DNA of 64,000 bases from NCBI RefSeq assembly GCF_004345245.1, contig NZ_SLUQ01000001.1:682001-746000 (forward strand), in the 5' to 3' direction. Numbering within the stretch: the first letter of the stretch is position 1; each line of letters opens with the position of its first letter. Below are positions 24,273 through 27,839 of this stretch, in pieces. This DNA is from Rhizobium sp. BK251 (GTDB lineage: Bacteria > Pseudomonadota > Alphaproteobacteria > Rhizobiales > Rhizobiaceae). The position numbers were made by a program, and so were the translations under genes. A model generated the notes under the pieces. It did no database searches. It saw nothing but the letters and a program-made list of their open reading frames with translations, and was not told the origin of the DNA.

Positions 24273-25346
24273 TTATCGGCGGCCGAAGAGCCGGGAATTC
24301 GCCCGCATCCGGCGCACGACGGACGCCTGCCTCGAAAGGTTCTGCTGCTCGGGAGTTGCGGCAATGGTGGACGGCGACGGCTGTTCGGCAGGCTCTGCCG
24401 GCCGGTAGGTATAGTTGTCGGCGCGGCGCCAGGCCTCGACCCGCGCTTCGCATTCGGCGGGATCGGCTGCTTCCATGAGCAGCCAGGCCCGGCTCACTTC
24501 GCCCTGCAGTTCCACCAGGTGCGGATAGAAGCGTTCCAGCACGAAGACGGCATCGAGGAAATCCATGCCGAGGCTCGTCAGGGTGGCGGCGAGCTGCTGG
24601 CCGGAAAGGTCCAGCATGACGCGATCGGCAAGCCAGCGGCTCGTGGAAAGCGCATCGGCAAGTGCTACGGAAAACTGGGTCGCGTCGCGCAGGCGCGCGA
24701 AGCGCACGAGAAGCGCCGACTGCACGTCGGAGAGGCTGCGCAGCCCCAGCCGATCGTCGTCGTGCTCGGCAAGCTGGTGCGCGATCTGCTTGATCCTGCG
24801 CCGCAGCGTCTCTTCGTTTGCAAGCCGCAGGGCTTCGGCCTCGTCGCGGGCCGGCGATGGCGCGGGTGTCATGGCAGGCGACTCCATTTCCGGCTCTCCG
24901 GCTGCCACCCGGCGCAGTTCCGCCTGGTTGATGCCGACGAGCGCATCGATGACCTTCGGCGAAAGCGAATCCCGGCTGACGATCGCGCGGGCATGGGCAG
25001 CACCCTGGGTGCGGGCGATGGTGATGAGCACCTCGTCGTCGATTGCCTGGGGACCAGCAAGGAAGGGGGCCGCGATTTCGATCGGCTGGCTGCCGATGAA
25101 AAGCGCGACTGCCGGCGGCACATGCGGGCACTGCGAAAGGGCGGCCACTGCCTGGCGCTTGGCCTCGTCGGTGGAGGCCTGGAAGAGCGGCGTGAAGAGT
25201 TCGGCGAACTGGCGCAGCTGCGATTTTGAAGGATAGGCGATCCCCTCAAAACTACTCACCGTCGCCATCAACACCACATCCTTCTTCCGGACAGCCGCAG
25301 GTCCCTCAAGCTCTCGAAATTGGTCAGTCACGTGAACACCCATCAA
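24273..25346 (-). CDS. DUF2336 domain-containing protein
   Basis: 357 residues, all-helical HEAT-like protein of the DUF2336 family, which is common and multi-copy in Rhizobiales. Visible family features include FTPLFQASTDEAKRQAVAALSQCPHVPPAVALFIGSQPIEIAAPFLA and IDDEVLITIARTQGAAHARAIVSRDSLS. There is no signal peptide. The function is unknown. The first 27 residues may be extra: a second ATG at 25268 gives MATVSSFEGIAYPS, so the start is uncertain. It is convergent with the methyltransferase gene. Confidence 0.82.
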   Translation of the reverse strand: MMGVHVTDQFRELEGPAAVRKKDVVLMATVSSFEGIAYPSKSQLRQFAELFTPLFQASTDEAKRQAVAALSQCPHVPPAVALFIGSQPIEIAAPFLAGPQAIDDEVLITIARTQGAAHARAIVSRDSLSPKVIDALVGINQAELRRVAAGEPEMESPAMTPAPSPARDEAEALRLANEETLRRRIKQIAHQLAEHDDDRLGLRSLSDVQSALLVRFARLRDATQFSVALADALSTSRWLADRVMLDLSGQQLAATLTSLGMDFLDAVFVLERFYPHLVELQGEVSRAWLLMEAADPAECEARVEAWRRADNYTYRPAEPAEQPSPSTIAATPEQQNLSRQASVVRRMRANSRLFGRR

Positions 25347-25783: not shown

Positions 25784-25990
25784 TCAGAGCGCCTTGTGAG
25801 ACCGCAATGCGCCCAGCAGTTTCTCGCTCGTATTGAAGCCGGACTGATAGAGATCGATCGCGGTGGAGGCGGCGAAATTCGCTTCCGTGCTGTTCGGGTC
25901 GATCCGCCTTTCGACGCACCACGACGCAAGGACTCCACGCAGGATGTCCACGTCCTCAGGTGCGAAAGGAGAAGGAAAAAGCAAAGACAT
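25784..25990 (-). CDS. Small hypothetical protein, 68 residues
   Basis: Not recognised as a named family. Sequence MSLLFPSPFAPEDVDILRGV... continues through SWCVERRIDPNSTEA to EKLLGALRSHKAL; it looks like a compact helical protein of the kind conserved in rhizobia. GGAGGG precedes two adjacent ATG codons (25993 and 25990); the second gives 6-base SD spacing and is preferred. It contains an Asp/Asn-rich turn and a single Cys. There is no signal peptide and no obvious operon partner. Confidence 0.65.
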   Translation of the reverse strand: MSLLFPSPFAPEDVDILRGVLASWCVERRIDPNSTEANFAASTAIDLYQSGFNTSEKLLGALRSHKAL

Positions 25991-25993
25991 CAT

Positions 25994-26408
25994 CAGCCCT
26001 CCGAAGAAAGAGCCCGTATGATCCCTCCGGCGCTCATCGCCATGAAAACCCTACAGCCAAGGACACCATACGCTTGTTTGACCGGCGCGCAATTTGTTTA
26101 TCTGCGGCGCATTGGTCCGGCCGCCGGCCTGACGCCTGGCTAGCCGCGCATCTCGCGCAGTTGCGCCCCTGGATTCCACGCCGTTCACGAAATCGGCATC
26201 GCGAAACCAAAGTGCTTCCTGCCGCGTTTATGTCTCGTTACGGCGTGATGACTGCCGACATCGCGTTGGATTAGCAATGTGTTAACTATGCTGTGTCTCT
26301 ATGCGGAGGAAGGTGCGATTTGTACGCTTCTATTGTCGAAAGTTCACGCGGATACAAGAAATAGAATCCGCGCCACGGTATCTAACGCAATGTGAGAGCC
26401 GTGAGAAA
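25994..26408. other. Intergenic region between divergent small genes
   Basis: 415 bp with no convincing gene. It must contain the promoter of the minus-strand small gene and that of the structured leader starting near 26400. TTGGAT (about 26264) followed by TATGCT (about 26285) is a weak promoter candidate with short spacing. Nothing else is recognised. Confidence 0.4.
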
Positions 26409-26521
26409 GGTGCGAATGCTTCCCGGGGGACGAGCCCCTCAAGGAAGACGCACCGGCCCGCAGAAGGCGGGCAGGATGAGATTAATCGCAACTTCATCCG
26501 TCTCGGGCCTAGATGGAGACG
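26409..26521 (+). ncRNA. Structured 5' leader RNA with SD-sequestering hairpin
   Basis: Three stems can be drawn by eye. Hairpin 1: GGTGCG (26409-26414) pairs with CGCACC (26449-26454), inside it CTTCC (26419-26423) with GGAAG (26443-26447), inside that GGGG (26425-26428) with CCCC (26435-26438). Hairpin 2: GCCCGC (26456-26461), loop AGAAG, GCGGGC (26467-26472). Hairpin 3: CGTCTC (26499-26504) with GAGACG (26516-26521), which buries the GGAG ribosome-binding site of the following small gene. This resembles a riboswitch, thermometer or protein-bound leader. I cannot match it to a known RNA family. Confidence 0.55.
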
Positions 26522-26524
26522 AGA

Positions 26525-26695
26525 ATGGCAATTGTTGTAGAACTGGCGGACAGGCAGTCTCAAATGCCGCGCCGCCCCATGAAGGGCCCTGTCGAGGCCA
26601 AGATCCTTCTTTTCACCGGCGTTCGCTATGAACGCCTCGACGAGCCGACAACTCGCAGTGCCAACTCCGCTTTCCAGGCGAAGAAGAAGCATTGA
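26525..26695 (+). CDS. Small hypothetical protein, 56 residues, downstream of structured leader
   Basis: Not recognised by name. The product starts MAIVVELADRQSQMPRRP, has a hydrophobic core AKILLFTGVRYERL and a basic C-terminus AFQAKKKH. The ATG at 26525 is 6 bases after GGAG (26515-26518); an in-frame ATG at 26513 lies inside the sequestering hairpin and has no SD. The SD is buried in a 6-bp stem, which implies translational control. It ends 15 bases before the convergent DUF1254 gene. Short length makes the call moderate. Confidence 0.6.
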   Translation: MAIVVELADRQSQMPRRPMKGPVEAKILLFTGVRYERLDEPTTRSANSAFQAKKKH

Positions 26696-26710
26696 AAGGC
26701 GGCGACGCGA

Positions 26711-27259
26711 CTACTCCCCGCCGAATTCGCTGCATCCCGCTTCAGCGAGAAATGCTTTGGCCGCGTCGTCAAAACTAGCCTGCGGCGCAAGCGTCCGCAG
26801 CACGGCATAGCCATCCGGCCGTGCCATCTCCACGAGGATCGTCTGCTGTAGTGATTGCGGCAGGGCTTTTCGAAGCGTCGTCAGTTGCACCGGCGAGCCG
26901 ACCAGCACGTCGACGATACCGCCGACCGACGTCCGGTCGTTCATGCTGAAAACCTCGTTCGAAGCGCTGTCGTAGATCGCCAGCGACCAGAAGGGCACGT
27001 TGCCCTTGGCGCTGAAGCGCATCGGCGTCTCCTCGAGATCGAAGGCGCAGACCGCGGTCTTCACGTAGGGATCACCATTTGAGAGGCCGCTCGAATCCGG
27101 TTTTCCGTCGAGCAGGTGAAACTCGTTGAGGTCGCCCTCCGCCTCGACGCGCGTATAGGCGTCGCGACCGGTGAAGTGCGGCAGCGCCAGGATGATCACG
27201 AGATGCAGAAGTGCGGCGCCGAAAATGCCGGCGAGGACGGCGAAAACGACCCTAAGCAT
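26711..27259 (-). CDS. DUF1254 family protein
   Basis: 182 residues. One N-terminal membrane helix (LRVVFAVLAGIFGAALLHLVIILALPH) is followed by a periplasmic domain with the DUF1254 pattern (DPYVKTAVCAFDLEETP, VPFWSLAIYDSASNEVFSMNDRT). DUF1254 and DUF1214 normally occur together, as two domains or as neighbouring genes; here the start overlaps the DUF1214 stop by 8 bases. The function is unknown. Two Cys (CAFDL, AGCSEFGGE) might form a disulfide. Second gene of a two-gene operon. Confidence 0.8.
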   Translation of the reverse strand: MLRVVFAVLAGIFGAALLHLVIILALPHFTGRDAYTRVEAEGDLNEFHLLDGKPDSSGLSNGDPYVKTAVCAFDLEETPMRFSAKGNVPFWSLAIYDSASNEVFSMNDRTSVGGIVDVLVGSPVQLTTLRKALPQSLQQTILVEMARPDGYAVLRTLAPQASFDDAAKAFLAEAGCSEFGGE

Positions 27260-27839
27260 TGCCGCACCCGGTCTTTTCGAGCTGCGGCATGGTGAGGTCG
27301 ATCAGGCCGGAGCTGCCGGCCGTCGGCGTGTCGAAGAGCGTCAGCACCAGCCGGAAACTGTCTGAGCTCGGCAGCGCCAGCCAGTTTCCCGACCGCGCCT
27401 GCCGAGACAGCATCACGGTAAAGCTGCTGTCGGGATTGCGTAGCACCGTCCAGGAATTGAGCGCCGAGGGAAGGCCGGTGCCCGCCTCGAGCGGCTCGCC
27501 CCGCGCATCGGCCGTGAACAAGGTCCAGAGTCGCGCCGGTGGCGTCTGGCCGGTCAGCCGATAGCTGCACGCGGCCGAGAGCCTTTCGCCCGCATCGTCG
27601 ACCGTGGCGGAGAAGGTGAGGCCCTCTGCGGTGCCATAGAGCAGCTTGCCGGCGCGGGCGCGGTGAGACTTCGCATAGGGGTCGGCATCGGCCGTCTGCA
27701 GAGCGGGAAAGGCCTCCCATGCGCCGAGCTTGATCGCACCGAAACCCGCCGTCGCGTCGAGCGCGGACAGCGTGAAAAGGATGCCGCCTCCAAAGGCGAT
27801 CGTCAGGCAGAGCGCGACAAGAAGCGGAACCCGGAACAC
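27252..27839 (-). CDS. DUF1214 family protein
   Basis: 195 residues. N-terminal membrane anchor (LLVALCLTIAFGGGILFTLSAL), then a periplasmic DUF1214 beta-rich domain: KLLYGTAEGLTFSATVDDAGERLSAACSYRLTGQTPPARLWTLF, NSWTVLRNPDSSFTVMLSRQARSGNWLALP and the end FRLVLTLFDTP. The family's function is unknown. It is the upstream partner of the DUF1254 gene and is translationally coupled to it. Confidence 0.85.
   Translation of the reverse strand: MFRVPLLVALCLTIAFGGGILFTLSALDATAGFGAIKLGAWEAFPALQTADADPYAKSHRARAGKLLYGTAEGLTFSATVDDAGERLSAACSYRLTGQTPPARLWTLFTADARGEPLEAGTGLPSALNSWTVLRNPDSSFTVMLSRQARSGNWLALPSSDSFRLVLTLFDTPTAGSSGLIDLTMPQLEKTGCGNA

Follow-up and report, generated by a model that had tools for sequence, protein, structure and literature searches.

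A conserved Rhizobiaceae leader RNA with a predicted hairpin over the ribosome-binding site precedes a microprotein gene putatively of the CtrA type

We describe a conserved leader RNA in Rhizobiaceae that, as we argue with moderate confidence, acts in cis on a microprotein gene of the CtrA (cell-cycle) type, controlling its translation. The window, a stretch of 64,000 nucleotides from Rhizobium sp. BK251, carries this RNA directly ahead of a 56-residue reading frame; because the chain of hairpins before the start codon seems to cover part of the ribosome-binding site (Shine–Dalgarno sequence, SD), it probably sets the amount of protein made. Both the conserved RNA element and the microprotein family are absent from the RNA and protein libraries searched, the host bacteria include nitrogen-fixing symbionts, and the strict linkage of the RNA to one gene makes autoregulation a directly testable question. 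The features of the locus are as follows.

24273-25346, minus strand: DUF2336 protein, upstream of the ORF (Pfam, 49.4 bits)
26271-26286, plus strand: CtrA-like box TTAG-N7-TTAAC, a probable promoter element
26374-26378/26399-26403, plus strand: P0 hairpin (CACGG/CCGTG), 5' of P1, seen in this genus
26409-26524, plus strand: conserved leader RNA with stems P1-P4, adjoining the start of the 56-aa ORF
26409-26454, plus strand: P1 tiered hairpin, outer stem 26409-26413/26450-26454
26419-26423/26443-26447 and 26425-26428/26435-26438, plus strand: P1 inner tiers, variable in length and sequence; the P1 covariation figures are those of the outer stem
26456-26461/26467-26472, plus strand: P2 hairpin GCCCGC/GCGGGC
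26474-26480/26493-26499, plus strand: P3 helix GGATGAG/TTCATCC
26500-26504/26516-26520, plus strand: P4 hairpin GTCTC/GAGAC, covering three of the four SD bases
26494-26504/26516-26528, plus strand: P4ext, a hypothetical alternative helix of TCATCCGTCTC with GAGACGaGaATGG over the SD and start codon, excluding P3
26515-26518, plus strand: SD GGAG, three of its four bases inside P4
26525-26695, plus strand: 56-aa small protein gene (MAIVVELADRQ...AKILLFTGVRYERL...KKKH), from the ATG at 26525 to the last base of the stop codon at 26695
26711-27259, minus strand: DUF1254-like convergent neighbor (Pfam E 0.00077, below the curated cut-off)
27252-27839, minus strand: DUF1214 protein (Pfam, 63 bits)

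A sequence-only reading of this DNA had described three consecutive stems; we found four, P1 to P4, separated by linkers of 0-1 nt, plus the upstream P0, whose pattern CRCGG..CCGTG occurs in 30/30 same-genus loci. The three tiers it gave to the first hairpin lie where it had placed them (GGTGCG at 26409-26414 with CGCACC at 26449-26454, then CTTCC/GGAAG and GGGG/CCCC). The RNA of 26380-26540 has a predicted folding energy of -61.6 kcal/mol (z = -2.87), and none of 200 dinucleotide shuffles was equally stable. When given an alignment of 59 leaders, RNAalifold proposed the same four helices unaided, and in single-sequence folds of the 59 leaders P1 formed in 47, P2 in 54, P3 in 37 and P4 in 34. 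Three sets of unpaired positions are invariant, namely AGAA 5' of P1, an A between P2 and P3, and AU in the P3 loop.

We then assessed these helices by covariation. The alignment consisted of the 59 leaders keeping the P1 region, out of 69 non-redundant leaders with a P1-like start pattern; ten were left out, either for a misplaced start (L059, L146 and L171) or as near-duplicates (L007, L008, L026, L080, L132, L134 and L138). Since the start pattern missed 73 loci, some visibly with P1 and some without, the P1 statistics describe only P1-bearing leaders. Across the 59 related sequences, the P1-P4 pairs can form in 98.2% of cells, a proportion that fell to 33-49% when the partners were slid by 1-3 columns. 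Two-sided changes were seen at 7 pairs in 23 cells, against 2.7 and 4.4 in shuffles, and 0/500 shuffles were as high, with the proviso that kinship inflates the counts. Further pair types numbered 23 compared with 19.6 in shuffles, a value reached by 4/500. In the P1 outer stem, 99.0% of cells were paired and four of five pairs showed two-sided changes: the two outer pairs carry G-C, G-U and A-U, two others go from C-G to U-A, and the third pair is U-A in the window and two other sequences. P2 had two-sided changes at three of five counted pairs, with 95.6% of cells paired. In our view, the covariation seen in P1 and P2 gives the leader structure good support.

P3 and P4 are near-invariant, and the most conserved parts of the leader region are P3, the SD and the AUG. 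Changes in P3 were one-sided only, with 99.3% of cells paired and the first six pairs possible in 59/59 leaders; P4 was paired in 98.6% of cells without any two-sided change, its outermost pair alone being broken (4/59). Because compensatory changes are absent from both helices, we predict their pairing and register from complementarity and conservation; the SD hairpin P4 is a likely prediction. The check for compensatory changes that the earlier reading had called for thus came out in favor of P1 and P2, while P3 and P4, the helices bearing on the SD, are too invariant for it to decide. In a column-pair scan of the 59 leaders, two or more two-sided changes occurred at 14 pairs; P1, P2 and the P2ext pair gave the strongest of these, and the remaining contacts were scattered singly. 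P2ext, an alternative in which the P1 3' arm pairs with GGUG, was set aside: its most variable pair is broken in 7/59 leaders (and kept by two-sided changes in 6/59), and P1 accounts for the changes in the shared arm, no leader breaking either of the two P1 pairs that vary most.

Predictions were mixed on the claim that a hairpin buries the SD. P4 can cover three of the four SD bases, but in the minimum-energy fold of the window itself P4 takes a shifted register (UCUCG/CGAGA), with the SD half exposed. Of the 59 relatives, 55 allow all five GUCUC/GAGAC pairs, against 24 for the pairs of the shifted register. The predicted probability of an unpaired SD had a median of 0.25 over the 59 leaders, and blocking the P4 5' arm in silico raised median SD openness from 0.26 to 0.52. 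The broader proposal of a structured leader directly at the start codon was borne out, in that the leader is conserved across relatives and its last helix is able to cover the SD.

An SD held within a short helix beside the start codon is also what an RNA thermometer would offer, with warming melting P4 to free the SD, and predicted AUG openness rose slightly, with medians of 0.28 at 20 C and 0.35 at 42 C. However, predicted SD openness was flat (medians of 0.25, 0.25, 0.26 and 0.26 at 20, 28, 37 and 42 C), which tells against the thermometer that the sequence-only reading had entertained; the P3/P4 sequence is near-invariant, and the promoter box is of CtrA type, not a heat-shock context. We consider a thermometer highly improbable. 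ROSE-type RNA thermometers of rhizobia place a hairpin over the SD and are followed by a heat-shock gene. The present leader shares with them a hairpin over the SD in Rhizobiaceae, here a predicted one, but it has no predicted thermal response at the SD, is near-invariant in its P3/P4 sequence and does not precede a heat-shock gene.

Upstream, the pattern TTA[AG]N7TTAAC lies within 420 nt of the start in 62 of the 80 non-redundant loci kept from 297 relatives, and is absent in 18/80; it was framed after some of the same loci had been viewed, and shuffles yielded a mean of 0.14 of 80 (maximum 2 in 50 rounds) and downstream controls 0/79. Overall, 144/176 loci have it upstream. The first half, TTAG in the window and in many loci, is one base off TTAA-N7-TTAA, which an excerpt of PMC4287350 gives as the full CtrA motif of Caulobacter, activating with its first base at -39; in Sinorhizobium meliloti, according to an excerpt of PMC4433202, CtrA is mainly an activator. 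By analogy, we infer that transcription begins near 26310, some 39 nt downstream of the point where the box starts. A scan for generic sigma-70 promoters found none. In five loci (L039, L052, L053, L058 and L106), the box is 332-360 nt from the start codon, compared with 171-276 nt in most other leader-bearing loci.

From such a start site, a leader of about 215 nt would fold as P1-P2-P3-P4, of which P1 and P2 are given by covariation and P3 and P4 are predicted. The GUCUC/GAGAC pairing of P4 would then place most of the SD in a short hairpin, so that initiation would be damped, not shut. A trans-acting factor may recognize the near-invariant GGRUGARAU...UUCAUCCGUCUC...GGAGACGAG, with its unpaired A and AU; the likeliest kind of factor is an RNA-binding protein, for which the small basic protein would be the first candidate.

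The leader may also be able to change state. UUCAUCC can pair either with the upstream arm, giving P3, or, joined to GUCUC, with GGAGACGaGaAUGG, giving P4ext, and the likeliest switch would be one in which UUCAUCC swaps P3 for a longer P4 over the start codon. The P4ext cells can pair in 98.6% of cases, with no covariation, and all ten pairs are possible in 52/59 leaders. The spacer bases that P4ext uses are near-invariant (G in 59/59 and G in 57/59), and the top-base frequency, averaged over positions -12 to -1, is 0.90 in the 59 loci, compared with 0.58 ahead of DUF1214 (33 loci) and 0.77 ahead of DUF1254 (48 loci, with coding sequence upstream). Folding energies lend the switch little support: P3 and P4 together were more stable than P4ext in 59/59 leaders (medians of -12.7 vs. 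-9.3 kcal/mol), and P4ext formed in 0/59 single-sequence folds. Blocking the P3 5' arm had a small effect, median AUG openness falling from 0.34 to 0.22, with 37/59 leaders moving in the expected direction. A move of UUCAUCC out of P3, lengthening P4 across the start codon and shutting off translation, is in our view a tentative model with a less than even chance of being right. Its fuller form would be a new RNA switch, so far seen in Rhizobiaceae only, in which the invariant UUCAUCCGUCUC picks either the upstream arm or the SD and start codon, and by which the CtrA-transcribed microprotein would be translated in one cell-cycle phase, triggered by itself or by another cell-cycle factor; we think this unlikely.

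The genes around the ORF are also widely kept, with homologs nearby in 163/176 (DUF1254), 159/176 (DUF1214) and 155/176 loci (DUF2336), some loci being too short to hold all three. In S. meliloti, DUF1254 and DUF1214 are convergent downstream, and DUF2336 lies upstream beyond two further genes. In the window, the upstream neighbor of the ORF is on the opposite strand, and the convergent neighbor downstream makes the ORF the last gene of its transcript. The DUF2336 neighbor has a weak NCBIfam match, 37 bits where the cut-off is 400, to the Caulobacter protein SpbR, which a paper title ties to cell-pole development. The promoter box and, more weakly, this DUF2336/SpbR-like neighbor point to the CtrA cell-cycle network on grounds of sequence. 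A 69-aa ORF at 25784-25993 (minus strand), with no Pfam or NCBIfam match, has homologs near the locus in 84/176. Our literature search returned no paper on the DUF2336/DUF1254/DUF1214 locus together with Rhizobium or CtrA, and no CtrA small-protein leader; transcriptome supplements may nonetheless list the present leader.

Given a short gene with a convergent neighbor downstream, and conserved RNA blocks that exceed the needs of a ribosome site, the transcript might instead be mainly a trans-acting or dual-function small RNA whose hairpins serve stability or RNA pairing. We judge this very unlikely, as conservation peaks around the start codon, the SD and P3, purifying selection acts on the ORF, and leaderless orthologs exist. 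That the 56-residue ORF at 26525 is real, as the sequence-only reading had it, was confirmed by a median dN/dS of 0.11 over 726 usable, non-independent pairs, all below 1; by this measure it is under purifying selection and behaves as a gene. Within the leader, a candidate upstream ORF (conserved ATG/CTG plus TGA) was rejected because the length from codon to TGA spreads over three frames (23, 21 and 15 of 59).

We next examined how widely the leader occurs and whether it keeps to this gene. A DNA search found the region in 37/37 same-genus genomes and in 0/24 genomes of other families, and a search with a consensus protein sequence recovered the ORF from 54/199 family genomes. A covariance model of P2-P4 (R1), built from 35 sequences, gave 54 matches in 53/247 family genomes and 23/109 genera, in a scan that, like all those of more than 40 genomes, applied stricter filters and may have lost weak matches. 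Fifty of the 54 precede an ORF of this protein family, in 50 genomes and 20 genera. No such ORF follows the other four (L107-L110; E 0.0016-0.0031), which are the sole match of three genomes and the second match of another (G120), and no genome among the 247 carries two ORF-linked leader copies. Using the RNA model alone, all 45 strong matches (at least 54 bits) in the 247 family genomes were at the ORF start. Among 100 chosen loci, 71/87 matches reached at least 54 bits, every one of the 71 ending where the ORF begins; since 35 of these 71 had built the model and many loci had been fetched via either the leader or the ORF, position is more fairly tested by the family scan. The next best R1 match in the window's own genome had E = 0.36. 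In a class sample of 289 genomes, R1 matched only the window's genome and one other (E = 0.01), the latter a chance match at a locus without the P3 motif or a family ORF.

Searches of Rfam yielded 0 matches in the window at the gathering threshold, 0 up to E = 5 in 26240-26720 and 0 in 20 relative loci, in agreement with the earlier reading, which could match the RNA to no known family. The invariant unpaired AGAA, A and AU, and a complementarity that permits two states, would suit an orphan riboswitch, in which the leader binds a small molecule; we find this quite unlikely, given that the strong matches precede a single gene family with no known metabolic role and that Rfam has no match. SAM-II, described in an excerpt of PMC9373788 as a translational riboswitch of metA/metZ leaders in Sinorhizobium, is likewise a structured leader RNA near a start codon in Rhizobiaceae, but the present leader has no known ligand or Rfam match and its gene family is of unknown function. 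An excerpt of PMC2864571 names Rhizobiales-1, Rhizobiales-2 and flg-Rhizobiales as conserved RNA candidates of the same order. Rhizobiales-2 and flg-Rhizobiales have Rfam accessions there, and our Rfam search gave no match to either; Rhizobiales-1, without an accession and scored 'probably not' cis-regulatory in that excerpt, can be set beside the leader by description only.

The protein reached no curated cut-off in Pfam, NCBIfam, PHROGs or PDB, in line with the earlier reading, which could assign it to no known family. A Pfam match to SH3_11 in 1/36 members (E = 0.0031) was taken as chance. The S. meliloti ortholog is annotated as a hypothetical protein in its record, and a literature text search for the peptide motif in three spellings returned nothing. 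Profile searches found homologs in 102/249 genomes of the order (48/111 genera). At 17 homolog loci from other families of the order (L209-L225), the P3 pattern was present in none, so the protein has a role that needs no such leader; a looser CtrA-like box was found at 10 of the 17. The protein is small and basic with R/K-rich stretches, and its structure model is disordered-looking and of low confidence (pLDDT 69.7, pTM 0.18).

These properties bear on autogenous control, in which the small basic protein would bind the P3/P4 block of its own leader and repress translation. Ribosomal proteins repress translation in this way, by binding their own leaders, with a helix that sequesters the SD. 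The present system has in common with them a structured 5' leader, an SD in a (here predicted) helix and, in each genome, a single leader heading a single gene that encodes a small basic protein; it differs in that its protein, a candidate binder on sequence grounds, belongs to no Pfam or NCBIfam family at curated cut-offs. The 50 of 54 model matches that precede the family ORF, never in two copies per genome, the R/K-rich, disordered-looking protein and the invariant unpaired nucleotides beside the helices all favor such control. Yet the protein has no RNA-binding fold or family match, its 17 other-family homologs lack the P3 pattern, and linkage alone does not imply binding; we hold autogenous control to be possible but doubtful. 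Cis-acting control of translation by the leader, whichever factor reads it, remains our preferred reading.

Some leaders of the family are reduced or diverged. L103-L105 keep GGATG...CATCC, CGTC...GACG and the start region, with P1 and P2 absent, and L048, L051 and L118, judged by eye, retain a P3-like helix next to an altered P4. A loose P3 pattern occurs within 150 nt of the start in 155/176 loci, and together with these reduced and diverged leaders it marks P3-P4 as the most widely kept part. Orthologs of the 56-aa ORF without this leader also exist. Eight of them (L111, L112, L114, L116, L117, L120, L124 and L125), without the P3 pattern, share a block, GGAGGCGNTGC, found within 110 nt of the start in 8/176 loci and followed in several by GCTCC and the purine-rich CCGAGAGGG or similar; perhaps these loci carry a leader of a second type, which selects pairing partners of its own.
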